From assembly GCA_004102785.1 (NCBI GenBank), contig SCEJ01000031.1, positions 1-37,418 on the forward strand: a stretch of 37,418 bases of DNA, in the 5' to 3' direction. Position 1 is the stretch's first letter; the number at the start of each line of letters is the position of its first letter. Source of the DNA: Muribaculaceae bacterium Isolate-013 (NCI) (lineage in GTDB: Bacteria; Bacteroidota; Bacteroidia; Bacteroidales; Muribaculaceae). A program made the position numbers and the translations under genes. The notes under the pieces were generated by a model. It had not been told where the DNA came from, ran no database searches, and saw nothing but the letters and a program-made list of their open reading frames with translations. This document shows, in pieces, positions 182 to 28,938 of this stretch.

Positions 182-199
182 AAAAAATTGTTAACTTTG
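170..199 (+). promoter_or_regulatory. Probable promoter of the nuo-atp-nuo operon
   Basis: TAACTTTG at 192-199 matches the Bacteroidota -7 consensus TAnnTTTG exactly. The -33 element is weak: TTCG at 170-173, 18 bp upstream. It is the only good -7 match I saw before nuoA. A start about 7 bp downstream would give a leader of roughly 170 nt. Confidence 0.55.
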
Positions 200-374: not shown

Positions 375-752
375 ATGATATCTTTAGGAATCTTTGGTAT
401 AGAACCTGTGGTTTTTGCCGTGGTGGCGCTCCTTACCGGCGTCGCTTTGGTCGGCCTGGCGCTCTGGATTGCCAAGCTCATCTCACCCAGGTCGTACAAC
501 CCTCAGAAAGGTGAAGCTTACGAGTGCGGTATCCCTACCCGCGGTTCATCCATGACCCGTTTCCATGTGGGGTACTATCTGTTCGCAATCCTGTTCCTGA
601 TGTTCGACGTCGAGACAGTGTTTCTCTTCCCCTGGGCCGCCCGTATGCGCGCCCTCGGCGGTGACGCGCTGATCTGTGTCGCCGTATTCTTCGCAATCTT
701 AGTGCTCGGCCTTATCTACGCCTGGCGGAAAGGAGCTCTTGAATGGAAGTAA
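375..752 (+). CDS. nuoA: NADH-quinone oxidoreductase subunit A
   Basis: NuoA is a small membrane subunit of complex I, next to the quinone channel. From the ATG at 375 the protein has 125 residues, close to the family norm, with three hydrophobic helices. The family signature is clear: a loop with NPQKGEAYECGIPTRG and then HVGYYLFAILFLMFDVETVF, with the acidic DVE of the second helix. An upstream in-frame ATG at 249 would add 42 polar residues unlike the family, so 375 is preferred. The end overlaps nuoB by 10 bases, which suggests translational coupling. First gene of the operon. Confidence 0.93.
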   Translation: MISLGIFGIEPVVFAVVALLTGVALVGLALWIAKLISPRSYNPQKGEAYECGIPTRGSSMTRFHVGYYLFAILFLMFDVETVFLFPWAARMRALGGDALICVAVFFAILVLGLIYAWRKGALEWK

Positions 753-1393
753 AGCAGATTACCACCAAGTCCATGCCCTACGACGCATGGAAAGACAATG
801 AATACATCGAGAAGCTCGTGCAGGAGCTGCGCGATTCCGGCACAAACGTGCTGGTGGGCTCGCTCGACAAACTTATCAACTGGGGCCGAAGCAACTCGCT
901 GTGGCCGCTCACTTTCGCTACCTCCTGTTGCGGTATCGAGTTCGTGTCGCTGGGCGCAGCCCGTTTCGACATGGCCCGGTTCGGATGGGAGGTCGCACGT
1001 TCATCCCCCCGCCAGGCCGACTTTATCATGGTGGCCGGCACTATCGTGAACCGCATGGCGCCGGTGTTCCGCCGCCTTTATGACCAGTTGGCCGAACCCA
1101 AGTATGTGATTGCTTGCGGCTCGTGCGCCATATCGGGCGGTCCTTTCCGCAAATCATACCACGTGGCAAAGGGTATCGAGGATATCGTGCCGGTCGATGT
1201 GTTCTGCCCCGGCTGTCCCCCCCGCCCCGAGGCCATGATATACTCCATCATGCAGCTCTCGCGCAAGGTGAAGGTGGAGCGCTTCTTCGGAGGCGTCAAC
1301 CGCCAGCAGAAGCGTGCCGACTTCTTTGCCGAGCATCCCGGGCAGGAAGCACTCTACAATCCGGTGCTCTCTGACGATGCCGACAAGCGCTGA
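743..1393 (+). CDS. nuoB: NADH-quinone oxidoreductase subunit B (N2 cluster)
   Basis: NuoB carries iron-sulfur cluster N2, the last electron carrier before quinone. The 216-residue protein shows the four expected cysteine ligands: the adjacent pair Cys62-Cys63 in ATSCCGIEF, Cys128 in ACGSC, and Cys158 in CPGCPPRPEA. The region around MARFGWEVARSSPRQAD is typical of the family. The tail after about residue 180 is polar and a little longer than in many homologues. The start overlaps the nuoA stop by 10 bases, and nuoCD follows after 65 bp. Confidence 0.96.
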   Translation: MEVKQITTKSMPYDAWKDNEYIEKLVQELRDSGTNVLVGSLDKLINWGRSNSLWPLTFATSCCGIEFVSLGAARFDMARFGWEVARSSPRQADFIMVAGTIVNRMAPVFRRLYDQLAEPKYVIACGSCAISGGPFRKSYHVAKGIEDIVPVDVFCPGCPPRPEAMIYSIMQLSRKVKVERFFGGVNRQQKRADFFAEHPGQEALYNPVLSDDADKR

Positions 1394-1458
1394 CGCCACG
1401 CATCACTACCCCACATCATTTATCATTAAAGCATTTCGCACCATAATATACAGAATAT

Positions 1459-3087
1459 ATGGCTAATCTGCAGGAAAAGATCGCCGGGCTGTTCCCCTCC
1501 GCCACCTTTGAACAGGAGGGCGACGGCAAGCTGCGCATCGTAATTCCCCACGACAAGCTCCACTCCCTGGTCAAGGATCTCCGCGACAACCATCGGTTCG
1601 ACTACCTGATTACAATCGTGGGTATGGACTGGAAAACATCGCTGGGTTGCATATATTATCTCACATCAAGCGTTTCCTCCGAGGTTATCGCGGTGAAAAC
1701 ATCCACCGATGACCGCGACAAACCGATGCTCCCCTCAATCGCCGACCTCTACCGTATCGCCGAATTCTACGAGCGCGAGGTTTACGATTTCTTCGGAATC
1801 ATCTTCGTGGGCAACCCCGACATGCGCCGTCTCTTCCTGAATATCGACTGGAAAGGCTTCCCCCTGCGCAAGGACTATGACGCCAATCCCGAGCTTAACC
1901 CCGTGAGCATCGAGGCCGAGCGCCAGTCAGACTTCACCGACCAGTGGGTACGCACCGAGTCGGGCGAAGTGAAATGCAACCGGCGCCGTGTTTTCGCCGA
2001 GGATGATTTTGTGGTGAATATCGGCCCGCAGCACCCCGCCACACACGGTGTGCTCCGCTTCCGTACCGCCGTCGACGGCGAGACGATAAAGAAAATCGAT
2101 GTCTACATGGGCTATATCCACCGCGGCGTGGAGAAGCTCTGCGAGGACCTCGCATATATGCAGACTCTCCACTTCATGGACCGTCTGGACTACTTCTCGG
2201 CCCACAACTACCACCACGGCCTGTGTCTGTGCATTGAGAAGGCCGCCGGCATCGAGGTGCCGCGCCGCGCACAGGTAATCCGTGTGATGATGGACGAGCT
2301 TTCGCGTATAGCGTCGCACTGCCTTTTCCTCGGCACTTTCTGCATGGACCTCGGTGCCACTACGATGCTCTTCTACACCCTGCGTGTGCGTGAGCAGATT
2401 CTCGACATCATGGAGCGCACATGCGGTGCCCGTATGACTTTCAACTACGACTGTCTGGGCGGTGTGATGCAGGACCTCGACGAGAATTTCGTCAGCGACG
2501 TGAAGGAACTCCTGGCCGTAATTCCCAAGAATGTAAAGGAGTACAACAAGATATTCACCGGCAATGTGATTGCCCGCGGACGTATGGAAGGGGTAGGCGT
2601 GCTTTCGCACGAGGATGCCGTTTCCTACGGTATCACCGGCCCCTCGGGACGTGCTTCCGGCTGGGCTTGCGATGTGCGCAAGACTCACCCCTATGCCATC
2701 TACTCCGAGCTTGATTTCGAGCAGGTTGTCCGCAACGAGGGCGACTCTATGGCTCGTTTCAAGAACCGCATTGACGAAATCCTCCAGAGCGCCGACATCC
2801 TTTCGCAGCTTGTCGACAATATCCCCGAAGGGGAGTTCTGCGCCAAGGTGCCCAAGGTGCTCAAGCTGCCTCAGGGTAGCTGGTTCCAGTTGGTGGAAGG
2901 CTGCCGCGGTGTGTTCGGCGTATATATCGAGAGCGACGGCTCGAACAAGCCTTACCGCATGAAGTTCGCCACCCCGTCGATGCCTGCCGCCTGCGTGGTC
3001 GACCACATCACCCGCGGCCAGAAAATCGCCGACCTTATCACCATCGGCGGCTCGATGGACTACATCGTGCCCGACATGGACCGATGA
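1459..3087 (+). CDS. nuoCD: Fused NADH-quinone oxidoreductase subunit C/D
   Basis: This 542-residue protein fuses the 30-kDa subunit (NuoC, about residues 1-150, with EFYEREVYDFFGI and GFPLRKDY) to the 49-kDa subunit (NuoD, from about 170). NuoD begins with VVNIGPQHPATHG and holds YMGYIHRGVEKL and the C-terminal SMDYIVPDMDR, all part of the quinone-site region shared with NiFe hydrogenase large subunits. C/D fusion is known from Enterobacteria and is usual in Bacteroidota. It forms the peripheral Q-module with NuoB and NuoI. A minus-strand open frame of 359 codons inside this gene is a codon-bias shadow. Confidence 0.95.
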   Translation: MANLQEKIAGLFPSATFEQEGDGKLRIVIPHDKLHSLVKDLRDNHRFDYLITIVGMDWKTSLGCIYYLTSSVSSEVIAVKTSTDDRDKPMLPSIADLYRIAEFYEREVYDFFGIIFVGNPDMRRLFLNIDWKGFPLRKDYDANPELNPVSIEAERQSDFTDQWVRTESGEVKCNRRRVFAEDDFVVNIGPQHPATHGVLRFRTAVDGETIKKIDVYMGYIHRGVEKLCEDLAYMQTLHFMDRLDYFSAHNYHHGLCLCIEKAAGIEVPRRAQVIRVMMDELSRIASHCLFLGTFCMDLGATTMLFYTLRVREQILDIMERTCGARMTFNYDCLGGVMQDLDENFVSDVKELLAVIPKNVKEYNKIFTGNVIARGRMEGVGVLSHEDAVSYGITGPSGRASGWACDVRKTHPYAIYSELDFEQVVRNEGDSMARFKNRIDEILQSADILSQLVDNIPEGEFCAKVPKVLKLPQGSWFQLVEGCRGVFGVYIESDGSNKPYRMKFATPSMPAACVVDHITRGQKIADLITIGGSMDYIVPDMDR

Positions 3088-3156
3088 CCCGCGGCGCTCA
3101 AGCCTCCTCTAATTAGCAATAAACTAAAAACCAATCATAGAAATCCCACCTCAACA

Positions 3157-4263
3157 ATGGGTAACGAACAGATTACAATTGACAACTTCGGCTCCTGGAC
3201 CGCCTCACTCGACGCGATGCTCAACGGCATCATGCCTTCGTGGTGCGCCACACTCCTGGAGTGCGTGCTCGTAGGTGTGGGCCTGCTGCTGGTGTATGCG
3301 GTGCTCGCGTTGTTCTATATCCTTTATGAGCGCAAGATATGCGCCTGGTTCCAGTGCCGTCTCGGCCCGAACCGCGTAGGCCCCTGGGGACTTTTCCAGG
3401 CGTTCGCCGATATGTTCAAGATGCTCATCAAGGAGATTATCGAGCTTAAGAATATCGACAGGTTCCTCTTCGCCCTGGCGCCTTACCTGGTGATTATCGC
3501 CTCGATGCTCTGCTTCGCGGTGCTCCCCTGGGGCAACGGCCTGCAGATTATCAACTTCAATATCGGCATCTTCTTCCTCATCGCCTGCTCTTCGATCGGC
3601 GTGCTCGGCATTCTGCTGGCCGGATGGTCGTCCAACAACAAGTTCACTCTTATCGGCGCTCTCCGTTCGGGCGCGCAGATGGTGAGCTACGAGCTCTCGG
3701 TAGGTCTGTCGATTCTCACCATGGTGGCTTTTGCCGGCACTATGGATGTGGAAGAGATTGTGATGGCCCAGAAGGACCACTGGTTCATCTTCTCGGCGCA
3801 TGTGCCTGCCATTATCGCACTGGTGATTTACCTTATCGCCGGTACCGCCGAAACCAACCGCGGCCCGTTTGACCTTCCGGAGGCCGAATCGGAGCTTACC
3901 GCAGGTTATCACACGGAATACTCGGGTATCCACTTCGGCTACTTCTATCTGGCGGAATACCTCAACCTTTTCATCGTATCTGGCGTGGCAGCGCTGATGT
4001 TCTTCGGCGGATGGATGCCTTTCCAGATTTCCGGATTCGACGGCTTCAATCACCTGATGGGATATATCCCCTCGGTGGTGTGGTTCCTCATCAAGGCTTT
4101 CGCCATCTCCTTCGTCATCATCTGGTTCAAGTGGACCTTCCCCCGTCTGCGTATCGACCAGCTTCTGAAGCTTGAGTGGAAGTATCTCCTCCCCATCAAC
4201 CTGTTCAACCTCGTGCTGATGGTGATTATCGTGATGCAGGGCTGGTATATCGGTGCCAACTGA
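3157..4263 (+). CDS. nuoH: NADH-quinone oxidoreductase subunit H
   Basis: NuoH is the membrane subunit that joins the Q-module to the proton-pumping arm and forms much of the quinone chamber. The 368-residue protein has about eight hydrophobic helices. Family hallmarks are LGPNRVGPWGLFQAFADM and ETNRGPFDLPEAESELTAGY with its conserved acidic loop. The roughly 35-residue N-terminal lead before the first helix is slightly long. In most operons nuoI follows directly; here atpD follows after 77 bp, with no terminator-like hairpin and no clear TAnnTTTG -7 box in the gap. Confidence 0.95.
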   Translation: MGNEQITIDNFGSWTASLDAMLNGIMPSWCATLLECVLVGVGLLLVYAVLALFYILYERKICAWFQCRLGPNRVGPWGLFQAFADMFKMLIKEIIELKNIDRFLFALAPYLVIIASMLCFAVLPWGNGLQIINFNIGIFFLIACSSIGVLGILLAGWSSNNKFTLIGALRSGAQMVSYELSVGLSILTMVAFAGTMDVEEIVMAQKDHWFIFSAHVPAIIALVIYLIAGTAETNRGPFDLPEAESELTAGYHTEYSGIHFGYFYLAEYLNLFIVSGVAALMFFGGWMPFQISGFDGFNHLMGYIPSVVWFLIKAFAISFVIIWFKWTFPRLRIDQLLKLEWKYLLPINLFNLVLMVIIVMQGWYIGAN

Positions 4264-4328
4264 TAGCTGCCTCATCCGGCTCAGACGCCCCTCTTTCTCC
4301 ACACTTATCTCAGAATACAACTCTGTAA

Positions 4329-5843
<1,515 letters not shown>

Positions 5844-5888
5844 GCTGACCTCTAATTGTTAATCCACCCGTTTACCTCCGCATTGACT

Positions 5889-6125
5889 ATGGTTCTCAAA
5901 ATTATATCGGCTGAAAAGATTGTGTTTCAGGGTGATGCCGCCTCGGTGACACTTCCCGGCGAGATGGGTCTCTTCACTGTGCTGCCGCATCATGCGTCGC
6001 TGGTGTCGACTCTGGTTCCCGGCAAAATCCGCTACGCTCTCCCTTCGGGCGAACGCGAGGAACTCCCGGTGGAGGGGGGGATTGCCGACGTTGACAACGA
6101 CGTGGTTTCGGTCTGCATCTATTAA
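5889..6125 (+). CDS. atpC: F1Fo ATP synthase subunit epsilon, short form
   Basis: Subunit epsilon links the F1 rotor to the c-ring. From the ATG at 5889 the protein is 78 residues, beginning MVLKIISAEKIVFQG and including LPGEMGLFTVLPHHASLV, the conserved beta-sandwich domain. It stops after that domain, so the C-terminal pair of helices that inhibits ATP hydrolysis in many bacteria is absent; short epsilon subunits of this kind are known in Bacteroidota. An ATG at 5856 would add 11 residues that do not fit the family start. It follows atpD by 45 bp. Confidence 0.9.
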   Translation: MVLKIISAEKIVFQGDAASVTLPGEMGLFTVLPHHASLVSTLVPGKIRYALPSGEREELPVEGGIADVDNDVVSVCIY

Positions 6126-6160
6126 CCCAAGCCTTCCTTAAAGGAAAACCTTATATTGAG

Positions 6161-7297
6161 ATGAAAAAACACCTCTTCATATTCATACTCCTGATCGGTT
6201 GCTCATTCTGGGCCACGGCTCAGAACGACGCTGCCGCCGACGGCTCCGCCGATGCCTCGCATGACCAGTACGTGCAGGAGGAAGACGGCGCCTTCGACAT
6301 CAAGGAGACAATCTTCGAGCATCTCGGCGACGGCTACGGATGGGAGGTGCCTTTCAACCATCACAAGCGGATACCGCTTCCTGTGATAGTGTTCGGCACT
6401 GACGGCATGCATTGCTTCCTGTCGTCGAAAGTGGAGCACGGCGCTGTCTATACCGACGGCGACGCCACTTTCAAAATCGCCACCGAGGGCGACAACAAGG
6501 GCAAGCTTGTGGAGATTGTCGACGGCAAGGAAATCAAGCCTTTCGACATCTCCATCACCAAGAACGTGTGCGCGCTGCTGATTGCGTGTCTCATCGTGAT
6601 ATGGCTTTGCCTGCGCCTTGCAAAGTGGTACCGTCACAATCCGTTCAAAGCTCCCCGCCGACTCAACGGTGCGATGGACTCCCTGATTGAATTCATCTAT
6701 AACGGCGTAATCAAGCCCACTCTCAAGCAGAAGGCTCCACGCTTCGCCCCGTATCTGCTCACGGTGTTCCTCTTCATCTTCTTCATGAACCTGTTGGGAC
6801 TCATCGTGGTGTTCCCAGGCGGCGCCAACGTCACCGGCAATATCGCCATCACGCTGGTGCTGGCGCTCTTCACCTTCTTCATCACCAATGTGTTCGCCAC
6901 TAAGGTGTACTGGAAGGAGATTTTCTGGCCCGATGTGCCTATCTGGCTCAAGTTCCCCCTCCCGATCATGCAGGTCATCGAGGTGTTCGGTATCTTCACC
7001 AAGCCTGCGGCCCTCACTGTGCGTCTGTTCGCCAACATGATGGGCGGCCACATGATTGTGCTCATCCTCACGATGCTCATCTTCATCTTCGCCGCCATGG
7101 GGGCTGCCGTGGCATCTGGCACCGCCGTGATTTCGGTGGCATTCTCGGTGTTCATGCTCCTTATCGATGTGCTGGTGAGCTTCATCCAGGCCTACGTGTT
7201 CACCATGCTTTCGACAATCTTCATATCTCTGGCCCAGGCCGAGCATGAGGAGCACGGTCACAAGGGGGAAAGCCACCCGGCAGCCGCCGGGGCGTGA
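6161..7297 (+). CDS. atpB: F1Fo ATP synthase subunit a with N-terminal extension
   Basis: Subunit a forms the two proton half-channels beside the c-ring. At 378 residues it is about 100 longer than the E. coli protein. The extra part is an N-terminal signal-like segment (KKHLFIFILLIGCSFWATAQ) followed by an acidic and then mixed periplasmic stretch to about residue 130, as seen in other Bacteroidota. The core holds five or so helices and the essential arginine in LTVRLFANMMGGH. No atpI-like gene precedes it: the gap to atpC is only 35 bp. The C-terminus is His/Glu rich (HEEHGHKGESH). Confidence 0.95.
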   Translation: MKKHLFIFILLIGCSFWATAQNDAAADGSADASHDQYVQEEDGAFDIKETIFEHLGDGYGWEVPFNHHKRIPLPVIVFGTDGMHCFLSSKVEHGAVYTDGDATFKIATEGDNKGKLVEIVDGKEIKPFDISITKNVCALLIACLIVIWLCLRLAKWYRHNPFKAPRRLNGAMDSLIEFIYNGVIKPTLKQKAPRFAPYLLTVFLFIFFMNLLGLIVVFPGGANVTGNIAITLVLALFTFFITNVFATKVYWKEIFWPDVPIWLKFPLPIMQVIEVFGIFTKPAALTVRLFANMMGGHMIVLILTMLIFIFAAMGAAVASGTAVISVAFSVFMLLIDVLVSFIQAYVFTMLSTIFISLAQAEHEEHGHKGESHPAAAGA

Positions 7298-7361
7298 GCC
7301 CTTGCCGGCCGCAGTCCGTCCTCCATCCGCCTCTTCTCTCTTGAAAATACAAAAGAAATAA

Positions 7362-7643
<282 letters not shown>

Positions 7644-7663
7644 TCGAAGCCTTAAAAGCGCTA

Positions 7664-7690
7664 CGCCCCTCCCCGGCATCGGGGAGGGCG
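7664..7690 (+). other. GC-rich stem-loop between atpE and atpF
   Basis: Arms of about ten base pairs (GCCCCTCCCCG against CGGGGAGGGC, one bulge) enclose a GCAT loop. No U-tract follows, so it does not look like a full terminator. It lies 21 bp after the atpE stop. I infer a role in 3'-end protection or partial attenuation that lets atpE mRNA outnumber downstream mRNA. Confidence 0.6.
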
Positions 7691-7748
7691 CGGAGGTGCT
7701 TAATCCGCTACCATCCTCTCCGAAAGTATAAAAGATAACCCTCAAGAT

Positions 7749-8246
7749 ATGGAACTTTTCAAAGTTGACTTCGGCCTTACCATCTGGATGTTCGTCTCGT
7801 TTCTGATTCTGCTGTTCATCCTGTGGAAATTCGCCTGGCCTGCAATCCTTAAAGGGGTCGATGAGCGTGCAAACCTCATCGACAAAGGGGTGGAGTACGC
7901 CCAGAACGCCAAGGAGCAGCTCGACAACGCCCAAGAAGAATCTAAAAAATACATTGCCGATGCCCGTCATCAGCAAGCTGAAATCATTGCCGAGGCCAAC
8001 AAGATGAAGTCGCAGATCATCGCCCAGGCTCACGACGAGGCCAAGAAAGAGGCGCAGAAAGTGATGGATTCGGCCAAGGTTTCAATCGAACAGTCGCGCA
8101 AAGAGGCCGAGGCTAATCTGCGCGACCAGGTGAGCCAGTTCGCCCTTGATATCGCCCAGAAAGTGACCCGCGGACAGCTCGAGAATTCTTCAGCACAGAA
8201 GAAACTTGTAAATCAGCTCCTTGACGAAATAGAAACTCAAAACTGA
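7749..8246 (+). CDS. atpF: F1Fo ATP synthase subunit b
   Basis: Subunit b is the peripheral stalk that holds F1 to the membrane. The 165-residue protein has a single N-terminal helix (IWMFVSFLILLFILWKFAW) and then a long charged coiled coil rich in Ala, Glu, Gln and Lys, the expected architecture. Its stop and the atpH start share one base (TGATG), suggesting coupled translation. Only one b-type gene is present, so the stalk is likely a homodimer. Confidence 0.94.
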   Translation: MELFKVDFGLTIWMFVSFLILLFILWKFAWPAILKGVDERANLIDKGVEYAQNAKEQLDNAQEESKKYIADARHQQAEIIAEANKMKSQIIAQAHDEAKKEAQKVMDSAKVSIEQSRKEAEANLRDQVSQFALDIAQKVTRGQLENSSAQKKLVNQLLDEIETQN

Positions 8247-8797
8247 TGAACGAAGGCCTTATACCCAAACGATATGCCAAGGCGCTTTTCAAAGTGGCCC
8301 TGGAACGTGGCGACGCCGATGCGCTCTACGCCACGATGGACACTCTGGCCAGAAGTTTCGCGGCCAATCCGCGCCTGCAGGAAACGGTGGCCAACCCGTT
8401 CCTTGCCGACGACAAGAAAACCGCCCTGCTGCTCACCGCCGCAGGGAACGCAGGTGCGGCCGGCCGGACTTACGCCGACTTCCTGAAGCTGCTGGCCGAA
8501 AACCGCCGCCTGCCCATGGCGCGCGCTGCCGCGCTGGCTTACCTTGACATATATCGTCAGGCCAATAACATATATCCGGTGAAGGTCGTATCGGCGGAGC
8601 CCCTCGACAAAGAGGAGCGCGCGCGCCTCGAAAGCCTCATCGGCAAACACCTCCGGGGAGGCACTGTGGAATACGATTTCAGCGTCGATCCCTCCCTTAT
8701 AGGTGGTTTCACAGTGAGCATAGGCTCCGAGAGGCTTGACGCCTCGGTGGAGAACGAGCTCAAACAGTTGCGTCTGCGACTCCTTTCTAAAATCTAA
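8246..8797 (+). CDS. atpH: F1Fo ATP synthase subunit delta
   Basis: Subunit delta caps F1 and binds the stalk. The 183-residue protein has the family pattern: [15 protein letters not shown] near the N-terminus, an all-helical first domain, and a C-terminal segment ending [28 protein letters not shown]. The start codon overlaps the atpF stop by one base, and atpA follows after 29 bp. Confidence 0.94.
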
Positions 8798-8826
8798 AAA
8801 ACTCACCCTCCCACTATTATAATCCA

Positions 8827-10401
8827 ATGATTAACCCAAGCGAGATTTCTGAAGTTTTAAAGCAGCAGCTTGAAAACGTAAACAAATCGGTGACCTTCGA
8901 GGAGGTCGGCACCGTGCTTGACGTAGGCGACGGTGTGGCCCACGTGTATGGCCTCGACAACGTATGCGCCAACGAGCTTGTAGAGTTCGAGAACGGCGTC
9001 AAGGGCGTGGCTCTCAACCTTGAGGAGAGCAACGTCGGTGTGATTCTGCTCAACGACGTAAATGCCGTTACCGAAAACATGACCGTGCGCCGCACAGGCC
9101 AGATCGCTTCCATCCCGGTGGGTGAGGGTCTTTTCGGCCGTGTGATCAATATCCTCGGCGAGCCTATCGACGGCCGCGGCCCCATCGACGGCCAGACCTA
9201 CATGATGCCCCTGGAGCGCAAGGCTCCCGGCGTTATCTTCCGTCAGCCGGTGAAGCAGCCGCTTCAGACCGGTATCAAGGCCGTTGACTCGATGGTGCCC
9301 ATCGGCCGCGGACAGCGCGAGCTTATCATCGGCGACCGCCAGATCGGCAAGACCGCAATCGCCATCGACACCATCATCAACCAGCGCAAGAACTTCGAGG
9401 AGGGGAAACCCGTCTACTGCATCTACGTGGCAATCGGCCAGAAAGCATCGTCGGTGGCTGCGATTGTGGAGACACTCCGCCAGCACGGCGCCCTCGACTA
9501 TACCTGCGTGGTAGCGGCTACGGCTTCCGATTCAGCAGCCATGCGCTACTATTCACCTTTCGCAGGTGTGGCTATCGGCGAGTTCATCCGCGACACCGGA
9601 CGCGACGCTCTCATCGTTTACGATGACCTCTCGAAGCAGGCTGTGGCATATCGCGAGATTTCGCTGATTCTCAAACGCCCCTCGGGCCGCGAGGCATATC
9701 CCGGCGATATCTTCTACCTCCATTCGCGTCTGCTGGAGCGCGCTGCCAAGATTATCGACAACCAGAAGGTGGCCGCCTCGATGAACGACCTCCCCGAGGT
9801 GCTCAAACCTATGGTGAAGGGTGGCGGCTCGCTGACAGCCCTCCCCATCATCGAGACCCAGGCCGGCGACGTTTCGGCATATATCCCCACCAACGTGATT
9901 TCTATCACCGACGGTCAGATTTATCTTGAGACCGCTCTGTTCAACCGCGGTATCCGTCCGGCAATCAACGTGGGTATCTCCGTGTCGCGTGTCGGCGGTA
10001 ACGCCCAGATCAAGTCGATGAAGAAAGTGGCCGGTACTCTGAAAATCGACCAGGCACAGTTCCGTGAGCTTGAGTCGTTCACCAAGTTCGGCGGCGACAT
10101 CGACCCCGTTACAGCGCGCGTAATCGACCGCGGCCGTAAGAACGAGCGTCTCCTTATCCAGCCCCAGTACAAGCCTTGGGCCGTGGAGCATGAGGTGGCC
10201 GTAATCTACTGCGGTGTTAACGGTCTGCTCTCCGATGTGCCCGTTGACAAGGTGGCCGACTTCCAGGATGCCCTTCTGCAGCTTCTCGAGGCAAAGTACC
10301 GCAAGGATGTTCTCGATGTAATCCGCTCGGGCGCCCTTACCGACGACTGCACCGCCAAGCTCACCGAAGCCGCCAAGGAGGTGGCCGCACGCTACGCCTG
10401 A
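8827..10401 (+). CDS. atpA: F1Fo ATP synthase subunit alpha
   Basis: This is the non-catalytic nucleotide-binding alpha subunit of F1. The 524-residue protein has the P-loop GDRQIGKT at 169-176, [12 protein letters not shown], and the family signature [17 protein letters not shown]. Length and domain order (beta-barrel, nucleotide-binding, helical C-terminal domain) are normal. It is followed by atpG after 61 bp. Confidence 0.97.
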
Positions 10402-10462
10402 GATTTCAACCTCGCACTCACGACGTAAATATAACTATTCCAGAATCCCCACTCATTGATAT

Positions 10463-11350
10463 ATGGCAACATTAAGAGAACTGAAAGGACGCATCGGGTC
10501 GGTAGCCTCTTCCGAGAAGATTACCGGCGCAATGAAGATGATCTCCTCGGCCAAGATGCACAAGGCCGAGCAGGCTCTGCGTCAGTTGCGCCCCTTCCGC
10601 GACCAGGTGGAGACGATTATGGCCAATCTGGCCGATACCGACGCCACCTTCTCTTCGCCTCTGATGGAGGAGCGCCCCGTGCAGCACGCTATGATTGTGG
10701 TGTGGGGTTCCGACGACGGCCTCTGTGGCGCCTACAACGTCAACATCTTCAAGCAGCTATTGCAGAAAATCGCCGAATTGCGCGGCGCCCTGGGCGAGGA
10801 TGTGCGCATCAGCGTGTGCGGCATAGGCTCTAAAATCGCCAAGGCGTGCGCCAAGCTCAAGCTCCCCGGAGTAGAGGCCGTGGCCGCTCCCGCCGGGGTT
10901 GATTCAAAAAGCTCCGACGCCGCCGTGCGCGACTTCATATGGAGTCTGCGCGACAAATTCACCTCAGGCGAGGTTGACCGCGTGGATGCCGTCTACATGT
11001 CGTTCAAGAGCATCAGCCGCCAGCGTCTGGAGTCGGCGCAGCTCCTCCCCGTGGCTCCGTCGGCTTTCGCCTCGGCCTCGAAGGAGGTAAAGGCCCGGCC
11101 ATATATCTTCGAGCCGTCGGCCGAAGCGATATTCAACCGCATTCTCCCGATGTACCTGCTGGCTGTGATGCATGATATTTTCACCGAGAACCGCGCCAGC
11201 GAACAGGCCGCCCGTGTGATGGCCATGCAGAGCGCCAACGATAACGCCAAGAAACTCCGCGACCAGCTCAACCTTGAATTCAACAAGCTGCGCCAGGCCG
11301 CCATCACCACTGAACTCCTTGACATCCTCGGAGGGCAGGTGCGTGACTAA
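10463..11350 (+). CDS. atpG: F1Fo ATP synthase subunit gamma
   Basis: Gamma is the central shaft of F1. The 295-residue protein starts with the long helix LRELKGRIGSVASSEKITGAMKMISSAKM, shown here by its core GRIGSVASSEKITGAMKM, and ends with the matching helix carrying ARVMAMQSANDNAKKLRDQL and RQAAITTELLDILGG. Both helices form the rotor coiled coil. This is the last atp gene. nuoI begins only 30 bp later on the same strand, with no terminator between. Confidence 0.96.
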   Translation: MATLRELKGRIGSVASSEKITGAMKMISSAKMHKAEQALRQLRPFRDQVETIMANLADTDATFSSPLMEERPVQHAMIVVWGSDDGLCGAYNVNIFKQLLQKIAELRGALGEDVRISVCGIGSKIAKACAKLKLPGVEAVAAPAGVDSKSSDAAVRDFIWSLRDKFTSGEVDRVDAVYMSFKSISRQRLESAQLLPVAPSAFASASKEVKARPYIFEPSAEAIFNRILPMYLLAVMHDIFTENRASEQAARVMAMQSANDNAKKLRDQLNLEFNKLRQAAITTELLDILGGQVRD

Positions 11351-11380
11351 CCTACTGAAAATCGATAAACCAATCATAAA

Positions 11381-12226
11381 ATGGGTAGCATAAAAGATTA
11401 TTTTTCATCCTTAGGCTCCGGTGTCGCATCCCTTATAAAGGGTATGCAGGTCACCGGTAAGGAATTCGTCACCCCTAAGATTACTGAAAGATATCCTGAG
11501 AACCGCGACAATATGAACATATCGCAGCGGTTCCGCGCCGTGCTTGAGCTGAAATATGACCAGGACGGCAACCACCGCTGTATCGCCTGCGGTACGTGCG
11601 AGCGCAACTGCCCCAACGGCACTATCTCCATCGAATCGAAGATGGTCGAAACCTGGGACGGAAAGAAGAAAAAGAAGCTCGACAAGTATATCTACGACCT
11701 GGGTTCGTGCACTTTCTGCCAGTTGTGTGTGACCACATGCCCCACTGACGCGCTCGACTTCTCCAACGATTTCGAGCAGGCTGTGTTCTCGCGCGCCAAG
11801 CTCGTAAAGCAACTCAACTATCTTCCCGAGAAGCCCGAGCCCGAGCCTACGCCCGAGCAGCGTGCCAAGTTCGAGGCCGAGAAAGCCGCCAAAGCCGCAG
11901 CAGCAAAGGCCGCGGCTGCCGGTCCGGCCGTTGAGCTTGACGAAAAGGCGCTCAAAGCCATCGAGGCCGCTGCCGGCGACCCCGAGAAGCAGGCCAAGCT
12001 GCGCGCCGCATTCGAGAAAGCCGCCCGTCTGAAAGCCGAGAAGGCTGCCGCCGCCAAAGCCGCCGCCGCCCCGGCCGTTGAGCTTGACGACAAGGCCAGG
12101 AAAGCGCTCGAGGCTGCTGCCGGCGACCCCGAGAAGCAGGCCAAAATACGTGCCGCCCTTGAGAAAGCTGCCCGTCTGAAAGCCGAAAAGGCTGCCGCTA
12201 ACAATAATACTGAAAATAAAAACTAA
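11381..12226 (+). CDS. nuoI: NADH-quinone oxidoreductase subunit I with repeated C-terminal tail
   Basis: NuoI carries two 4Fe-4S clusters that pass electrons towards N2. Both motifs are intact: Cys67, 70, 73 and 77 in CIACGTCERNCP and Cys110, 113, 116 and 120 in CTFCQLCVTTCP. The core ends near residue 150. Beyond it lie about 130 residues of Ala/Lys/Glu-rich sequence that ordinary NuoI proteins (about 160-180 residues) lack. This tail holds two near-identical 49-residue units starting PAVELDEKA and PAVELDDKA, and is probably helical or coiled coil. Function unknown. The gene restarts the nuo series right after atpG. Confidence 0.95.
   Translation: MGSIKDYFSSLGSGVASLIKGMQVTGKEFVTPKITERYPENRDNMNISQRFRAVLELKYDQDGNHRCIACGTCERNCPNGTISIESKMVETWDGKKKKKLDKYIYDLGSCTFCQLCVTTCPTDALDFSNDFEQAVFSRAKLVKQLNYLPEKPEPEPTPEQRAKFEAEKAAKAAAAKAAAAGPAVELDEKALKAIEAAAGDPEKQAKLRAAFEKAARLKAEKAAAAKAAAAPAVELDDKARKALEAAAGDPEKQAKIRAALEKAARLKAEKAAANNNTENKN
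11924..12203 (+). repeat. 147-bp tandem repeat encoding the NuoI tail
   Basis: CCGGCCGTTGAGCTTGA recurs at 11924 and 12071, a period of 147 bp or 49 codons. The second unit is incomplete at its end. Differences are mostly synonymous or conservative (for example AKLRAAF against AKIRAAL), so the frame and protein sequence have been kept after duplication. Confidence 0.85.
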
Positions 12227-12235
12227 GCATTATAT

Positions 12236-12751
12236 ATGGAATCAGTAGGAAGTCTCATCGCCTATGGGGTAATCACTGCGGTGATTATCATCTGCTCGGT
12301 GCTTGCTGTTACCACACGCAGAATCCTGCGTGCCGCCACCTACCTGCTGTTTACCCTTTTTGCCACCGCCGCCTATTACTTCATGCTCGACTACGAGTTT
12401 CTGGGCGCGGTGCAGATTGCGGTTTACGCCGGAGGCATTGTGGTGCTGTTCGTGTTCTCTATTCTCCTGACCAGTCACCCCGGCGACAACAGCGCCAAAC
12501 TCGCTTCTAAAAAACGTATCCTGGGTCTCACCGGAGCCCTGGCCATGCTTGCCGTGGCCGGCTATTCGCTGGTGAGCCGCACGGAATTCCTTACCGCCAC
12601 AGCCAAGGGCGATAACCCCGATATGCAGACTATCGGCGATACCCTTCTCGGCACCGGCCACGCACAGTATATGCTTCCTTTCGAGGCTATATCGGTGCTG
12701 CTTCTGGCCTGCATCATCGGCGGTGTGGTGATAGCCCGTAAAAACCGTTAA
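12236..12751 (+). CDS. nuoJ: NADH-quinone oxidoreductase subunit J
   Basis: NuoJ is a membrane subunit of the pumping arm near NuoK and NuoA. The 171-residue protein has about five hydrophobic helices and the conserved third-helix motif GAVQIAVYAGGIVVLFVF, site of the pi-bulge that is important in complex I turnover. It starts 9 bp after nuoI and is followed by nuoK after 20 bp. Confidence 0.94.
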   Translation: MESVGSLIAYGVITAVIIICSVLAVTTRRILRAATYLLFTLFATAAYYFMLDYEFLGAVQIAVYAGGIVVLFVFSILLTSHPGDNSAKLASKKRILGLTGALAMLAVAGYSLVSRTEFLTATAKGDNPDMQTIGDTLLGTGHAQYMLPFEAISVLLLACIIGGVVIARKNR

Positions 12752-12771
12752 CGCAAAAATCAAAACCGGAA

Positions 12772-13083
12772 ATGGATCTTACAATACTTTTCTACCTCAT
12801 TCCGAGCTTGATCATGTTTTGCTGCGGTCTGTATGGCTTCATCACCCGCCGCAACATGATTGCCATCCTCATCTCGCTCGAGCTTATGCTCAACTCGGTC
12901 GACATCAATTTTGTGGTGTTCAACCGCTTCCTTTATCCCGGCGAGCTTGAAGGCATGTTCTTCTCACTGTTCGCCATAGCTCTGGCCGCGGCCGAGACCG
13001 CCCTCGCCATCGCTATCATCATCAATGTGTTCCGCGTGTCGGAGAACATCGATGTGGCTGATGTTACTAAAATGAAAAATTAA
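12772..13083 (+). CDS. nuoK: NADH-quinone oxidoreductase subunit K
   Basis: NuoK is a three-helix, antiporter-like membrane subunit. The 103-residue protein shows the family core NMIAILISLELMLNSVDINF with the membrane glutamate of helix two, and a second membrane glutamate in AAAETALAIAI. Both acidic residues belong to the proton path. The length is normal, and nuoL begins 8 bp after the stop. Confidence 0.95.
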   Translation: MDLTILFYLIPSLIMFCCGLYGFITRRNMIAILISLELMLNSVDINFVVFNRFLYPGELEGMFFSLFAIALAAAETALAIAIIINVFRVSENIDVADVTKMKN

Positions 13084-13091
13084 GTGCCCGT

Positions 13092-15119
13092 ATGTCACCT
13101 GTAATTCCTCTTTTAATTCTGGCCATCCCGCTGGGGATGTTTCTGCTCCTGGGTCTGACCGGGCATAAGATGCAGCACCGATGGGCCGGTATCGCCGGTA
13201 CTGTCGGCATGGGTGTGACTGCCGTCCTCGCATACTATACGGCTTTCACTTATTTCTTCTCCGGCGACCCTGCGTTTGTCGACGCCGACGCCCACACTCG
13301 CCTCCAGGCTGTGATTTTCAACCACGACTGGCTGGCTTTCACTGACAAGCTGGTTATTCGTCTGGGCTTCCTGCTCGACCCGATTTCAGCTCTGCTGTTA
13401 GTGGTGATCACCACCATCTCGTTCATGGTACACCTTTACAGCAACGGCTACATGCGCGACCATCATGGCGTGTGGGAAACCGGTTTCCAGCGCTTCTACG
13501 CATTTCTGAGCCTCTTCTCGTTCTCGATGCTCGGACTGGTTGTGGCCACCAACATCTTCCAGATGTATATCTTCTGGGAGCTCGTGGGTGCCTCATCGTA
13601 TCTGCTCATCGGTTTCTACTACACCAAGCCCTCGGCCGTATCAGCATCGAAGAAGGCTTTTATCGTGACCCGTTTCGCCGACCTCGGATTCCTTATCGGT
13701 ATCCTCGTGCTGAGCTTCTACACCGGCACTTTCAATTTCACCGATCTCACTTCGGTTGAAGTGGCCGACGGCGTATATCAGATCAGCCAGGGCACTGCCG
13801 AAGGCGTAAAGAGCATTTTCGCCAACTCGGCAGCCCCGATGTTCATGGGTGCCTCGGTGCTCACATGGGCGCTGGTGCTCATCTTCATGGGCGGTATGGG
13901 TAAGTCGGCCATGATGCCGCTCCATATCTGGCTTCCCGACGCCATGGAGGGACCGACCCCTGTCTCGGCTCTGATTCACGCCGCCACTATGGTTGTGGCC
14001 GGTGTGTATCTGGTGGCCCGCCTCTTCCCGCTTTACCTGATGGAGACCGCCGCCCTCGACATCATTGTGGTGGTCGGTGCCCTCACTGCCCTATATGCCG
14101 CTATGGTGGCCTGTACGCAGATTGACATCAAGCGTGTGCTGGCATTCTCTACCATCTCGCAGATTGCATTCATGATGGTGTCGCTCGGTGTTGCCCGTCC
14201 GGAATTCCATCATGGCCTGGGCTACATGGCCGGCATGTTCCACCTGTTCACCCACGCCATGTTCAAGGCGCTGCTCTTCCTCTGCGCCGGAGCCCTGATT
14301 CATGCCATCGGCTCGAATGACTACACCGATATGCACGGCCTGCGCAAGCATATGCCCATCACGCATATCGCCTTCCTTATCGGCTGCCTGGCAATCGCCG
14401 GTATCATACCTTTCGCCGGTTTCTTCTCCAAGGATGAAATCCTTACCGCCACGATGGGCCATTCGATTTTCTGGTATATCTGGATGTCGCTCGTGGCCGG
14501 TCTGACCGCCTTCTATATGTTCCGTCTCTACTACCTTATCTTCTGGTGGAAGGAACACAAGGTGCGCGAGGGGCATCACGCTCCCCACGACCAGCCCTGG
14601 ACCATGACCCTGCCGCTGATTATCCTCTCGGTGGTGTCGGTGTTCGCCGGTTTCGTGCCGATGGGCAATCTCGTGACATGGAACGGCCATGAGATGTTCT
14701 CCAGCGTGAACTTCTTCACCAACCTCTCGGCTCTTGACTGGAGCGTGGCATCCATCTCCCTTGCCGTGGCTGTGCTCGCCATCGTGCTTGCCACTGTGAT
14801 GTACAAGAAGGAGAACCCGCTCCCCGCAAAACTCAAAAACGCTATGCCCGCCCTCTGGGACTGGTGTCACCACCGCTTCTACTGGGATGAGCTCTATATC
14901 TTCATCACCCACAAGATTATTTTCGGTTGCATCTCCAAGCCTATCGCATGGTTCGACCGTCATATAATCGACGGTTCGATGGACGGCCTGGCCACTGTGA
15001 CAAACAAACTCTCCTACGCCATCCGTGGCCTGCAGTCGGGCAAGATACAGATGTATGTGTGGTGGTATCTCATCGGAGTAGTGCTCCTGGGTGCCGTAGT
15101 GATGGTGTGCGTGCTTTGA
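13092..15119 (+). CDS. nuoL: NADH-quinone oxidoreductase subunit L
   Basis: NuoL is the distal antiporter-like proton pump subunit with a long lateral helix. The 675-residue protein is normal for the family, with many hydrophobic helices, FWELVGASSYLLIGFYY carrying the key glutamate, HIWLPDAMEGPTPVSALIHA, and FSTISQIAFMMVSLG. The last 150 residues fit the lateral helix and final membrane anchor. nuoM follows after 67 bp. Confidence 0.95.
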   Translation: MSPVIPLLILAIPLGMFLLLGLTGHKMQHRWAGIAGTVGMGVTAVLAYYTAFTYFFSGDPAFVDADAHTRLQAVIFNHDWLAFTDKLVIRLGFLLDPISALLLVVITTISFMVHLYSNGYMRDHHGVWETGFQRFYAFLSLFSFSMLGLVVATNIFQMYIFWELVGASSYLLIGFYYTKPSAVSASKKAFIVTRFADLGFLIGILVLSFYTGTFNFTDLTSVEVADGVYQISQGTAEGVKSIFANSAAPMFMGASVLTWALVLIFMGGMGKSAMMPLHIWLPDAMEGPTPVSALIHAATMVVAGVYLVARLFPLYLMETAALDIIVVVGALTALYAAMVACTQIDIKRVLAFSTISQIAFMMVSLGVARPEFHHGLGYMAGMFHLFTHAMFKALLFLCAGALIHAIGSNDYTDMHGLRKHMPITHIAFLIGCLAIAGIIPFAGFFSKDEILTATMGHSIFWYIWMSLVAGLTAFYMFRLYYLIFWWKEHKVREGHHAPHDQPWTMTLPLIILSVVSVFAGFVPMGNLVTWNGHEMFSSVNFFTNLSALDWSVASISLAVAVLAIVLATVMYKKENPLPAKLKNAMPALWDWCHHRFYWDELYIFITHKIIFGCISKPIAWFDRHIIDGSMDGLATVTNKLSYAIRGLQSGKIQMYVWWYLIGVVLLGAVVMVCVL

Positions 15120-15186
15120 GCCGCAGCCTCCCCGCACTGCCTTAATCTCATAGAAACACAGTAAAATACAGTAAATCATAACAGAA

Positions 15187-16680
15187 ATGTTGTTTGAAAA
15201 CATCCTGATATATTTCGTGGTGATACCCCTGCTCATGCTGGGTGGTTTCGCCCTTTGCCGGGGCATCAAGGGTGTGCGCGCCGTGGCCGTCATCGGCTCG
15301 ATAGCGCTTCTCGCCTTGAGCGTGTGGGTCATGGCCGACTACATCGCGCTGCGCCAGGCCGGCAATACCGAAGAGATGCTCTTCACCGGTAGCTGGGAAT
15401 GGTTCGGGCCGCTGCACATCAACCTGTCGGTGGGTGTCGACGGTATCTCCATCGCCATGCTCCTCCTTTCGTCGATAATCGTTTTCGCCGGCTCCTTCGC
15501 CTCGTGGAAGATTGAGAACGCACGCCACTTCTTCATGTGGCTTCTCCTCCTTTCCACCGGTGTGTTCGGCTTCTTCATCACTACCGACCTCTTCACGATG
15601 TTCATGTTCTACGAGGTGGCGCTCATACCGATGTATCTTCTCATCGGCCAGTGGGGCACAGGCCGCAAGGAGTATTCGGCCATGAAGCTCACCCTGATGC
15701 TCATGGGCGGCTCTGCGTTCCTGATGCTCTCCCTTATCGGCATCTACTACCAGGCCGGCCTGGAGTCATGGAACATCCTTGAAATCGCCAACCATGCCCA
15801 TATCGACAAGGGGTGGCAGTATTTCCTCTTCCCGATGTGCTTCGTGGGCTTCGGCGTGCTGGGCGCCATGTTCCCTTTCCACACATGGTCGCCCGACGGT
15901 CATGCCTGTGCTCCGACTGCGGTGTCGATGCTCCACGCCGGCGTGCTTATGAAGCTCGGTGGCTACGGCTGCTTCCGCGTGGCCATGTATCTGATGCCCG
16001 AGGCCGCCAACGACCTTGCATGGATTTTCCTTATCCTCACCGGTATCTCGGTGGTCTACGGCGCCTTCTCGGCATGTGTGCAGACCGACCTCAAATACAT
16101 CAACGCCTACTCCTCGGTGTCGCACTGCGGCATGGTGCTCTTCGCCATCCTGATGATCAACACCACGGCCATGACCGGCGCCATCATGCAGATGCTTTCG
16201 CACGGTCTGATGACGGCCCTCTTCTTCGCCCTTATCGGTATGATTTATGGACGTACCCACACGCGTGATATCCGTCTGATGGGCGGTCTGATGAAGATAA
16301 TGCCGTTTCTCGGCGTGGCCTATGTCATCGCCGGTATGGCCTCGCTGGGTCTGCCCGGTCTTTCGGGCTTTGTGGCCGAGATGACAATCTTCGTGGGTTC
16401 GTTTGAGCATACCGACATGTTCCACCGCACCTTCACCATCATCGCCTGCTGCTCGATTGTAATCACCGCGGTGTATATCCTCCGCGTGGTCGGCAAGCTG
16501 CTTTTCGGCCCGGTGCAGGACAAGCATCACCTCGAACTCACCGACGCCACATGGTGGGAGCGCTTCTCGGCCATCACCCTTATCGTGTGTGTGGCCGGCA
16601 TCGGCTGCTTCCCCGAATTCTTCGAGTGGCTCATCCGCTTCACGTTTAACCCTGAAATCTTCCATGCTATCGGCATGTAA
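15187..16680 (+). CDS. nuoM: NADH-quinone oxidoreductase subunit M
   Basis: NuoM is the central antiporter-like pump subunit. The 497-residue protein has FMFYEVALIPMYLLIGQWG with the essential membrane glutamate, and HTWSPDGHACAPTAVSML, the counterpart of the usual HTWLPDAHxEAPTAGS motif. The family position after HTW is normally Leu and the one after DAH is variable; here the loop is SPDGHACAP, a mild variation. The gap to nuoN is 23 bp. Confidence 0.95.
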   Translation: MLFENILIYFVVIPLLMLGGFALCRGIKGVRAVAVIGSIALLALSVWVMADYIALRQAGNTEEMLFTGSWEWFGPLHINLSVGVDGISIAMLLLSSIIVFAGSFASWKIENARHFFMWLLLLSTGVFGFFITTDLFTMFMFYEVALIPMYLLIGQWGTGRKEYSAMKLTLMLMGGSAFLMLSLIGIYYQAGLESWNILEIANHAHIDKGWQYFLFPMCFVGFGVLGAMFPFHTWSPDGHACAPTAVSMLHAGVLMKLGGYGCFRVAMYLMPEAANDLAWIFLILTGISVVYGAFSACVQTDLKYINAYSSVSHCGMVLFAILMINTTAMTGAIMQMLSHGLMTALFFALIGMIYGRTHTRDIRLMGGLMKIMPFLGVAYVIAGMASLGLPGLSGFVAEMTIFVGSFEHTDMFHRTFTIIACCSIVITAVYILRVVGKLLFGPVQDKHHLELTDATWWERFSAITLIVCVAGIGCFPEFFEWLIRFTFNPEIFHAIGM

Positions 16681-16703
16681 TGATGTAGAATAGCAATACC
16701 AAT

Positions 16704-18173
16704 ATGGATTACTCACAGTTTCTGGTAATGCGGCAGGAGATAGCGCTGCTGGTAGTGTTCCTGCTCGTTTTCCTCTATGACACATTTATGCCCAAAGGGG
16801 CACTCAAAGGCACATCGTGGTTTGCGGTAGCCTGCTTCGCGATATATACCGCCTGGTGCTTCCTCTTCCCGGTGACGCAGGATGTGCAGGCTTTTGACGG
16901 GATGTATGTCACCTCGAAAGTGTGCGCGCTGATAAAGAATGTTCTCAATGTGGGCGCGCTGATAGTGCTGGTGCAGTCGACCACCTGGTCGGCCACCGAC
17001 GAGCAGTCGCAGCGCCGCGGCGAGTTCTACGAGCTGCTGCTGGTTACGCTTTTCGGCATGTATCTGATGATTTCGGCCCGTCACTTCCTTGTGTTCCTTA
17101 TCGGTTTGGAATCAGCCTCGCTTCCGCTGGCTGCCATGGTGGCTTTCGACAAGAACCGCTATGAGAGCCATGAGGCCGCCATCAAATATATGCTCACCGC
17201 CGTGTTCTCGTCGGCTGTGTTCATGATGGGCCTTTCGTTCGTCTACGGTCTCACCGGCACCATGTACTTCTCGGGCATAGCATCCGCACTGAGCGCATCG
17301 GGCAACTCCGCCCTGCTCATCTGCGCCCTGGCATTCGTTATCTCCGGTATCGGCTTCAAGCTGTCGCTCGTGCCTTTCCATCTCTGGACCGCCGATGTAT
17401 ATCAGGGCGCTCCCACTTCGGTTACCTCCTATCTCTCGGTAATCTCCAAGGGTGCTGCCGCATTCGCCTTCATGGTAGTGCTGGTGCAGTGCTTCGGCGC
17501 TTTCTACGCCGGGGTGTGGGAATGGATGCTCTATGCGTTGATTATCCTCACCATCACCGTAGGTAACCTCTTCGCCATCCGTCAGAAGAACATGAAGCGC
17601 TTCCTGGCCTTCTCGTCAATCTCGCAGGCCGGTTACATCATGCTCGGCATCGAAGGCTTCAGCTCCGTAGGCATGGGTGCGCTGATTTTCTACGTGCTTG
17701 TCTACGTGTTCTCCAACCTCGGCGCATTCGGTGTGATCGGCGCCATCGAGAACAAGACCGGCAAGGTTTCTATGACCGACTACAACGGCCTGTCGCGCAC
17801 CAACCCCTGGCTGGCCTGCTCGATGATGCTCGCCATGTTCTCCCTGGCAGGTATCCCGCCGTTCGCCGGTTTCTTCAGCAAGTTCTTCATCTTCACATCG
17901 GCCATCAACCAGGGCTCGGTAGCCATCTACATCCTGGTGCTTATCGCTCTGATCAACACCATCATCTCGCTCTACTACTACCTGCTGGTGGTCAAGGCCA
18001 TGTATATCTCGCCCGAAGAACCTCAGATTGCCAACTTCCGCTCCACCTTTGCCGAACGCCTGGCAATGTGGGTATGCGTGGCCGGCATCGTAGGTCTCGG
18101 CATCGTAAGCTGCTTCTACAACAGCATCTACGAAATCACCGCCGGCACCGACCTCTTCGCCGCCATCCCCTGA
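16704..18173 (+). CDS. nuoN: NADH-quinone oxidoreductase subunit N
   Basis: NuoN is the antiporter-like pump subunit beside NuoK. The 489-residue protein has LVFLIGLESASLPLAAMVAF with its membrane glutamate, FHLWTADVYQGAPTSVTSYL, and RFLAFSSISQAGYIMLG, all family hallmarks. It is the last gene of the energy cluster: the strong terminator at 18201 follows 27 bp after the stop. Confidence 0.95.
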   Translation: MDYSQFLVMRQEIALLVVFLLVFLYDTFMPKGALKGTSWFAVACFAIYTAWCFLFPVTQDVQAFDGMYVTSKVCALIKNVLNVGALIVLVQSTTWSATDEQSQRRGEFYELLLVTLFGMYLMISARHFLVFLIGLESASLPLAAMVAFDKNRYESHEAAIKYMLTAVFSSAVFMMGLSFVYGLTGTMYFSGIASALSASGNSALLICALAFVISGIGFKLSLVPFHLWTADVYQGAPTSVTSYLSVISKGAAAFAFMVVLVQCFGAFYAGVWEWMLYALIILTITVGNLFAIRQKNMKRFLAFSSISQAGYIMLGIEGFSSVGMGALIFYVLVYVFSNLGAFGVIGAIENKTGKVSMTDYNGLSRTNPWLACSMMLAMFSLAGIPPFAGFFSKFFIFTSAINQGSVAIYILVLIALINTIISLYYYLLVVKAMYISPEEPQIANFRSTFAERLAMWVCVAGIVGLGIVSCFYNSIYEITAGTDLFAAIP

Positions 18174-18200: not shown

Positions 18201-18239
18201 GCGGGCAGAATCCACCCAAGGATTCTGCCCGCCGCTTTT
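18201..18239 (+). terminator. Rho-independent terminator of the nuo-atp-nuo operon
   Basis: GCGGGCAGAATCC pairs perfectly over 13 bp with GGATTCTGCCCGC around the loop ACCCAA, followed by CGCTTTTC. It lies 27 bp after nuoN and is the first convincing terminator since the promoter near 192. Confidence 0.88.
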
Positions 18240-18337: not shown

Positions 18338-18372
18338 AATCAGCCAATTAGTTTTATACTAATTGGCTGATT
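18338..18372. other. Perfect hairpin inside the left end of the IS
   Basis: AATCAGCCAATTAG and CTAATTGGCTGATT pair over 14 bp around a seven-base loop (TTTTATA), followed by TTTC. It lies between the left inverted repeat and the transposase start, so it may act as a terminator that shields the transposase from outside transcription. Confidence 0.65.
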
Positions 18373-21768: not shown

Positions 21769-21769
21769 A

Positions 21770-23026: not shown

Positions 23027-23046
23027 TGTAGTTTATTTTTATGTTA

Positions 23047-24711: not shown

Positions 24712-24725
24712 TGGTAATCTTACGT

Positions 24726-27917: not shown

Positions 27918-27926
27918 GTGTATTGA

Positions 27927-28772: not shown

Positions 28773-28824
28773 GGTATTGATTGGTTGGTTTATTTGCTCC
28801 CACATAGACCTTATATGGGTTTTG

Positions 28825-28832
28825 CAAAATTA
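28825..28832 (-). promoter_or_regulatory. -7 element of the glucan operon promoter
   Basis: On the minus strand TAATTTTG fits TAnnTTTG. A TTGG lies about 17 bp upstream as a weak -33, shorter spacing than the usual 19-21 bp, which is what one expects for an activator-dependent promoter. The GH16 start is about 50 bp downstream. Confidence 0.55.
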
Positions 28833-28851
28833 CCACCGTTCGTTATTACCA

Positions 28852-28890
28852 AGGTTTGATTACTGACATTTTGAGGTTTGTTTTCTGACA
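28852..28890 (-). promoter_or_regulatory. Candidate HTCS operator: two 17-bp direct repeats
   Basis: On the plus strand the copies read AGGTTTGATTACTGACA (28852-28868) and AGGTTTGTTTTCTGACA (28874-28890), 14 of 17 identical and exactly 22 bp apart, two helical turns. The conserved halves AGGTTTG and CTGACA flank a variable four-base core. The inner copy ends 20 bp upstream of the -7 element. AraC-type regulators commonly bind such direct repeats next to the -33 region. Confidence 0.72.
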
Positions 28891-28938
28891 TATTATGCTA
28901 TTATTCATAAAATCAGACATAAACACGTTAAACCTCAT

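Follow-up and report, generated by a model that had tools for sequence, protein, structure and literature searches.

In a branch of Bacteroidales that comprises at least seven families, a complete F-type ATP synthase (atp) operon is located inside the complex I (nuo) operon, between nuoH and nuoI. We consider it probable (roughly 0.78) that the atp operon moved into the nuoH-nuoI gap long ago, lost its own promoter and has since been read jointly with the nuo genes from a promoter upstream of nuoA, with the arrangement locked in as a result. Genomes and loci with the nested arrangement are referred to as carriers, and other Bacteroidales as outgroups; the window is the whole stretch of DNA that was analysed, 37,418 nucleotides from a Muribaculaceae bacterium.

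Organization of the nuo-atp locus

Open reading frames (ORFs) and NCBIfam matches on the forward strand of the window give the order nuoA-B-CD-H, atpD-C-B-E-F-H-A-G, nuoI-J-K-L-M-N (375-18173), with the F-type ATP synthase set atpDCBEFHAG occupying positions 4341-11350 between nuoH and nuoI (Table 1). All eight ATP synthase subunits (a, b, c, alpha, beta, gamma, delta and epsilon) are present in the embedded set, and NuoA, B, CD, H, I, J, K, L, M and N are all encoded at the locus; in the same scan, limited to the locus, no nuoE, nuoF or nuoG was detected between nuoA and nuoN. The preliminary description of this DNA had placed a complete atp operon inside the nuo operon on one strand, with junction gaps of 77 bp (nuoH-atpD) and 30 bp (atpG-nuoI), and both the arrangement, coordinates included, and the gap lengths are borne out. 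The scores of NuoA, NuoI and NuoJ do not reach the cut-offs of the NCBIfam families that they match best, and that of AtpC (epsilon) falls just short, with 66.8 bits against a cut-off of 67.25; in each case, the best matches are still models of the respective subunit. The C-terminal helical domain of AtpC seems to be missing, given the limited part of the profile that is matched (Table 1).

Table 1 Features of the nuo-atp locus in window coordinates.
Feature	Position	Strand	Basis or remark
−7 promoter-like box TAACTTTG before nuoA	192..199	+	position in window; box enriched before nuoA over 89 carrier loci
nuoA	375..752	+	ORF open from 249; start placed at the internal ATG at 375, in line with the family length
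nuoB	743..1393	+	NF011391, over cut-off
nuoCD fusion	1459..3087	+	NCBIfam
nuoH	3157..4263	+	NCBIfam
Left junction nuoH-atpD, 77 bp	4264..4340	+	no −7 box, no terminator-like hairpin
atpD (F1 beta)	4341..5843	+	TIGR01039, 766.9 bits, cut-off 462.85
atpC (epsilon, short)	5856..6125	+	start codon uncertain; covers positions 2-76 of the 130-position profile
atpB (Fo a)	6161..7297	+	NCBIfam
atpE (Fo c)	7398..7643	+	NCBIfam
atpF (Fo b)	7749..8246	+	NCBIfam
atpH (F1 delta)	8246..8797	+	NCBIfam
atpA (F1 alpha)	8827..10401	+	TIGR00962, 747.5 bits, cut-off 484.45
atpG (F1 gamma)	10463..11350	+	NCBIfam
Right junction atpG-nuoI, 30 bp	11351..11380	+	no −7 box, no hairpin; sigma-70-like match overlaps
nuoI, long Ala/Lys-rich C-terminal tail	11381..12226	+	NCBIfam
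nuoJ	12236..12751	+	NCBIfam
nuoK	12772..13083	+	NCBIfam
nuoL	13092..15119	+	NCBIfam
nuoM	15187..16680	+	NCBIfam
nuoN	16704..18173	+	NCBIfam
Terminator-like hairpin 3' of nuoN, 13 pairs (9 G-C)	18201..18232	+	hairpin scan
Second terminator-like hairpin 3' of nuoN	18338..18372	+	hairpin scan

The C-terminal tail of NuoI in the window contains two similar repeats of about 47 residues. NuoI length ranges from 148 to 350 amino acids over 78 carrier loci (at least one of which, L147, includes masked bases), a spread that points to a fast-evolving tail behind a conserved ferredoxin core; NuoI tails are also found in some outgroups, reaching 239 amino acids. Directly behind the nuo hairpins, at 18444-19346, pieces of an IS982-family transposase are present in two ORFs, the second of which matches the family model. 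The reverse strand at 19447-32943 carries a cluster resembling a polysaccharide-utilisation locus, with GH3, SusD-like, SusC-like TonB receptor and GH16 genes and a hybrid two-component regulator of 1334 amino acids. No known RNA elements were found at gathering score within the window.

Promoter and terminator signals

The −7 consensus of the main sigma factor of Bacteroides is reported as TAnnTTTG (PMC7366714). We scored this box over the 150 bp preceding each start codon and took dinucleotide-shuffled sequences as the control. In carriers, the box precedes nuoA in 62 of 89 loci (9.7 expected from shuffles), with the caveat that these loci are related and their counts not independent, and is at the chance level before atpD (5/94, 6.0 expected) and nuoI (3/78, 3.1 expected); the counts for nuoB (9/93, 7.3), nuoH (4/97, 3.1) and nuoN (4/64, 3.7) are likewise given with the shuffle expectation, and those for the remaining twelve genes are below it. 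In outgroups, the box was found before atpD in 6 of the only 8 upstream regions available (1.6 expected), before nuoA in 5/10 (1.4), nuoB in 4/12 (1.8), nuoJ in 2/12 (0.6) and atpA in 2/8 (0.9), with all other genes near expectation. The scan thus detects promoters where these are expected, so that the box signal before atpD is gone in carriers. With the box present before carrier nuoA and outgroup atpD and at the chance level before carrier atpD, the carrier atp operon has probably lost its own promoter and is read from nuoA.

Within the window, TAnnTTTG is absent from both junction gaps, and so is any terminator-like hairpin, in agreement with the preliminary description, which had noted neither a hairpin nor a clear −7 box there. 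Terminator-like sites in the scanned region were not in excess over shuffles (20 vs. 16.7, sd 4.1). Because the box is clearly enriched only before nuoA in carriers, and strong forward-strand hairpins lie behind nuoN and not in the seams, the shared nuo-atp transcription unit proposed earlier is the likeliest reading of these signals. Transcription would start upstream of nuoA, continue through atpDCBEFHAG for a total of approximately 18 kb and end at the hairpins behind nuoN.

The alternative is that the genes are nested but transcribed separately, with non-consensus or intragenic promoters before atpD and nuoI providing independent control. The TAnnTTTG scan would not pick up other types of promoter or a promoter located far within nuoH, and sigma-70-like matches are more numerous than in shuffles (22 vs. 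12.1, sd 3.3), with one of them (11355-11382, 9 of 12 positions) overlapping the right gap, although Bacteroides is reported to have a different consensus (PMC7366714). Moreover, a few carrier loci have a −7 box within a junction gap, namely, 3 of 94 in the nuoH-atpD gap (L048, L053 and L054, all of one genus) and 3 of 78 in the atpG-nuoI gap (L045 and L088 with one or two each, and L137 with two). Against separate transcription, the box before carrier atpD and nuoI is at the shuffle level in the same scan that detects it before nuoA and before outgroup atpD, the gaps are short (carrier medians of 44 bp for nuoH-atpD and 55.5 bp for atpG-nuoI), and those of the window lack terminator-like hairpins. 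We consider separate transcription unlikely.

In three loci, L132, L133 and L137, the atpG-nuoI gap is unusually long (228, 269 and 357 bp, respectively, measured from match to match). The two −7 boxes in the gap of L137 could perhaps represent an additional promoter that serves the downstream nuo genes.

Co-transcription of nuo and atp, likely as judged from these signals, does not imply equal or fixed levels of the two enzymes. The preliminary description had suggested that a shared transcript would fix their relative levels; this is not supported, given that a shared transcript leaves translation and mRNA decay free to differ. Within the atp set itself, a single message has to yield the subunits in unequal amounts.

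Distribution across Bacteroidales and probable single origin

We searched 393 Bacteroidales genomes for NuoH and AtpD. The carriers belong to seven families (f1, f109, f22, f60, f88, f28 and f68), in which nuoH and atpD are adjacent in all 32 sampled genomes that have a NuoH match; the match-to-match gap is 29-106 bp in 31 of these, and in the remaining one (G201), adjacency was seen in the fetched locus. Both seams are present in 19 of the 20 loci fetched from these families, the twentieth (L053) being cut by a contig end, and the boundaries and gene order are the same in all seven. Family f109 is a Barnesiella group: NuoH of Barnesiella sp. An22 (L144), a locus with both seams, is 97.7% identical to that of L040. 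Genomes without a match are listed only in part, so some members of the seven families may lack both enzymes.

Among the outgroups, nuoH directly precedes nuoI in 12 of the 12 fetched nuo loci, confirming that this is the usual arrangement, as stated earlier, and all eight fetched atp loci are separate from nuo. The order D-C-B-E-F-H-A-G, with all eight genes matched, is found in five of these (L056, L058, L066, L069 and L071), whereas in the other three, one gene is unmatched or only the first two genes are matched. By eye, among the matches listed, no nuoH-atpD adjacency was seen in the order outside the seven families, and no same-strand adjacency was seen in a sample of 138 genomes across the phylum; because the absence rests on the matches listed, rare further cases may escape. 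Thus, the comparison of nuoH-nuoI spacing and atpD neighbours across Bacteroidales that the preliminary description had proposed finds the nesting in at least seven families and points to an old relocation rather than a local insertion. In several distant genomes of the phylum sample (f134, f146 and f152), nuoH and atpD appear, again by eye, on one contig about 7-22 kb apart and on opposite strands; this neighbourhood may have a separate origin.

Trees were built for six Nuo proteins and for four Atp proteins from 26 genomes (19 carriers and 7 others). In both, the 19 carriers group together, with an ultrafast bootstrap of 100 for nuo and of 94-95 for atp. Since both trees unite the carriers, we infer a single relocation followed by vertical descent; by the same token, the atp operon does not appear to have come from afar but rather to have moved within the lineage. 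Insertion on several independent occasions, or horizontal transfer of a nuo-atp cassette from family to family, would be in keeping with the inconsistent placement of f106, a family with separate operons, which falls beside the carriers in the atp tree, in a well supported split from the other outgroups, and within the outgroups, beside f24, in the nuo tree (support of only 66). However, the grouping of carriers in both trees, the identical boundaries and gene order across seven families, and the lack of a second same-strand nuoH-atpD case among the matches listed for the phylum sample make this explanation very improbable.

In the scenario of a single relocation, the ancestor shared by at least seven Bacteroidales families had a complete atp operon of vertical descent, which relocated to the short nuoH-nuoI gap and subsequently lost its own promoter. 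Once atpD was without a promoter, the arrangement would be locked in, and this would account for the lack of reversal in any readable genome of the clade.

Conservation within Muribaculaceae

The genome of the window belongs to Muribaculaceae (family label f1, shared with G037 and G324): NuoH of G037 is identical to that of Heminiphilus faecis (L142, NZ_VSMC01000006.1), and NuoH of G324 is identical to that of the Muribaculaceae locus L078 (JAFSCJ010000003.1). Of the 149 genomes of this family, 147 have NuoH and 144 have AtpD above the threshold, and the two are adjacent in 140. The remaining nine were inspected individually. In four (G509, G533, G460 and G442), the start of atpD follows nuoH and the contig then ends; in two (G437 and G532), the right seam, atpG followed by nuoI, is on a contig; in two (G444 and G471), the contig ends at or just past nuoH; and in G488, nuoH and atpD are each at a contig end. 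Overall, 144 genomes show the left seam, two others show the right seam, and the last three are interrupted at the left seam, so that no counterexample to the nesting was met among the 149. G437 and G532, in which neither NuoH nor AtpD is above the threshold, had been candidates for a joint loss, which we reject: each has a contig on which nuoI follows atp genes, so these are broken assemblies. A search of G011 (71% complete) for NuoH, NuoL and AtpA gave no match.

Among the best 80 of 573 relatives with named loci, a set biased to close kin by this very choice, the left seam is found in 78 and both seams in 62, with 18 loci ending before one or both seams; the ordinary nuoH-nuoI order was found in 0 of these 80.

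Misassembly or a binning error had to be excluded because the window is a complete contig from a draft assembly of 385 contigs and 3.3 Mb; the recurrence of the junctions in independent genomes, with nuoH-atpD found in the single-contig assemblies G303, G270 and G487 and in 144 of the 149 family genomes, leaves this explanation, named in the preliminary description as a possible refutation at both junctions, with a negligible probability and rules it out for the clade.

Rotary ATPases and complex I function

In the genome of the window, PF00006 matches atpA, atpD, Rho and, weakly, one further protein. A second rotary ATPase can be rejected on these matches: the other match over the cut-off (L003) is Rho, and the weak one (L004) reads as an ABC-type ATPase from its sequence. 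Thus, under joint transcription, the only rotary ATP synthase of the cell would be read together with the complex I genes. The earlier characterization of the two enzymes as those that make and spend the proton gradient is safe by half; the reservation concerns complex I, for which nuoEFG are not at the locus, as in the B. fragilis enzyme, reported to have no NADH:quinone activity and an unknown electron donor (PMC7002350). Subunit A of Nqr, the sole Nqr subunit sought, was found, and NADH oxidation is probably left to Nqr.

Implications

If the joint transcript is real, abundant gut bacteria rely on the nuo promoter for their supply of ATP synthase. It would then be predicted that nuo is strongly and steadily expressed in this clade, unlike the nuo operon of B. 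fragilis, for which poor expression in rich medium has been reported (PMC7002350). The locus is a clean natural example of one operon captured by another and deprived of a promoter signal, and outgroups without the change are available for comparison; the nesting is also a handy gene-order marker for the clade. A broader and rather doubtful conjecture is that this branch of gut Bacteroidales no longer controls the transcription of its only rotary ATP synthase separately but produces the enzyme in a single unit with a complex I devoid of the NADH module, possibly because the two enzymes work or assemble together, and that promoter loss made the capture irreversible.

Comparison with known systems

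The nesting proper is already known: Ormerod et al. (2016, Microbiome 4:36; PMC4936053) reported in one sentence that in S24-7 ('Ca. Homeothermaceae') the ATP synthase is integrated in the locus for complex I, which has 11 of 14 subunits there and lacks NuoEFG. No account was found, in the literature searched, of the nesting in the other families, which number at least six, of its exact boundaries or of the missing promoter signal before atpD. The S24-7 locus and that of the window represent the same family and the same nesting of F-type ATP synthase genes in a complex I locus; the section of PMC4936053 that describes the former gives no boundaries, other families or promoters. That section also suggested true absence of both enzymes in genome H5, whereas the two candidate losses encountered here are due to genes split over contigs.

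The nuo operon of B. fragilis (Ito et al. 2020) lacks nuoEFG, like the locus in the window, and the relevant part of that report mentions no atp genes within it (PMC7002350); nuoH and nuoI are neighbours in the fetched outgroup Bacteroidales, a set that does not include B. fragilis. The stand-alone Bacteroidales atp operon, D-C-B-E-F-H-A-G, shares its gene order with the embedded set. The difference is in context and signal: the stand-alone outgroup operon has a −7 box before atpD in 6 of 8 loci, whereas the carrier operon is embedded in nuo and lacks that box signal. The nesting is older and wider than one family.
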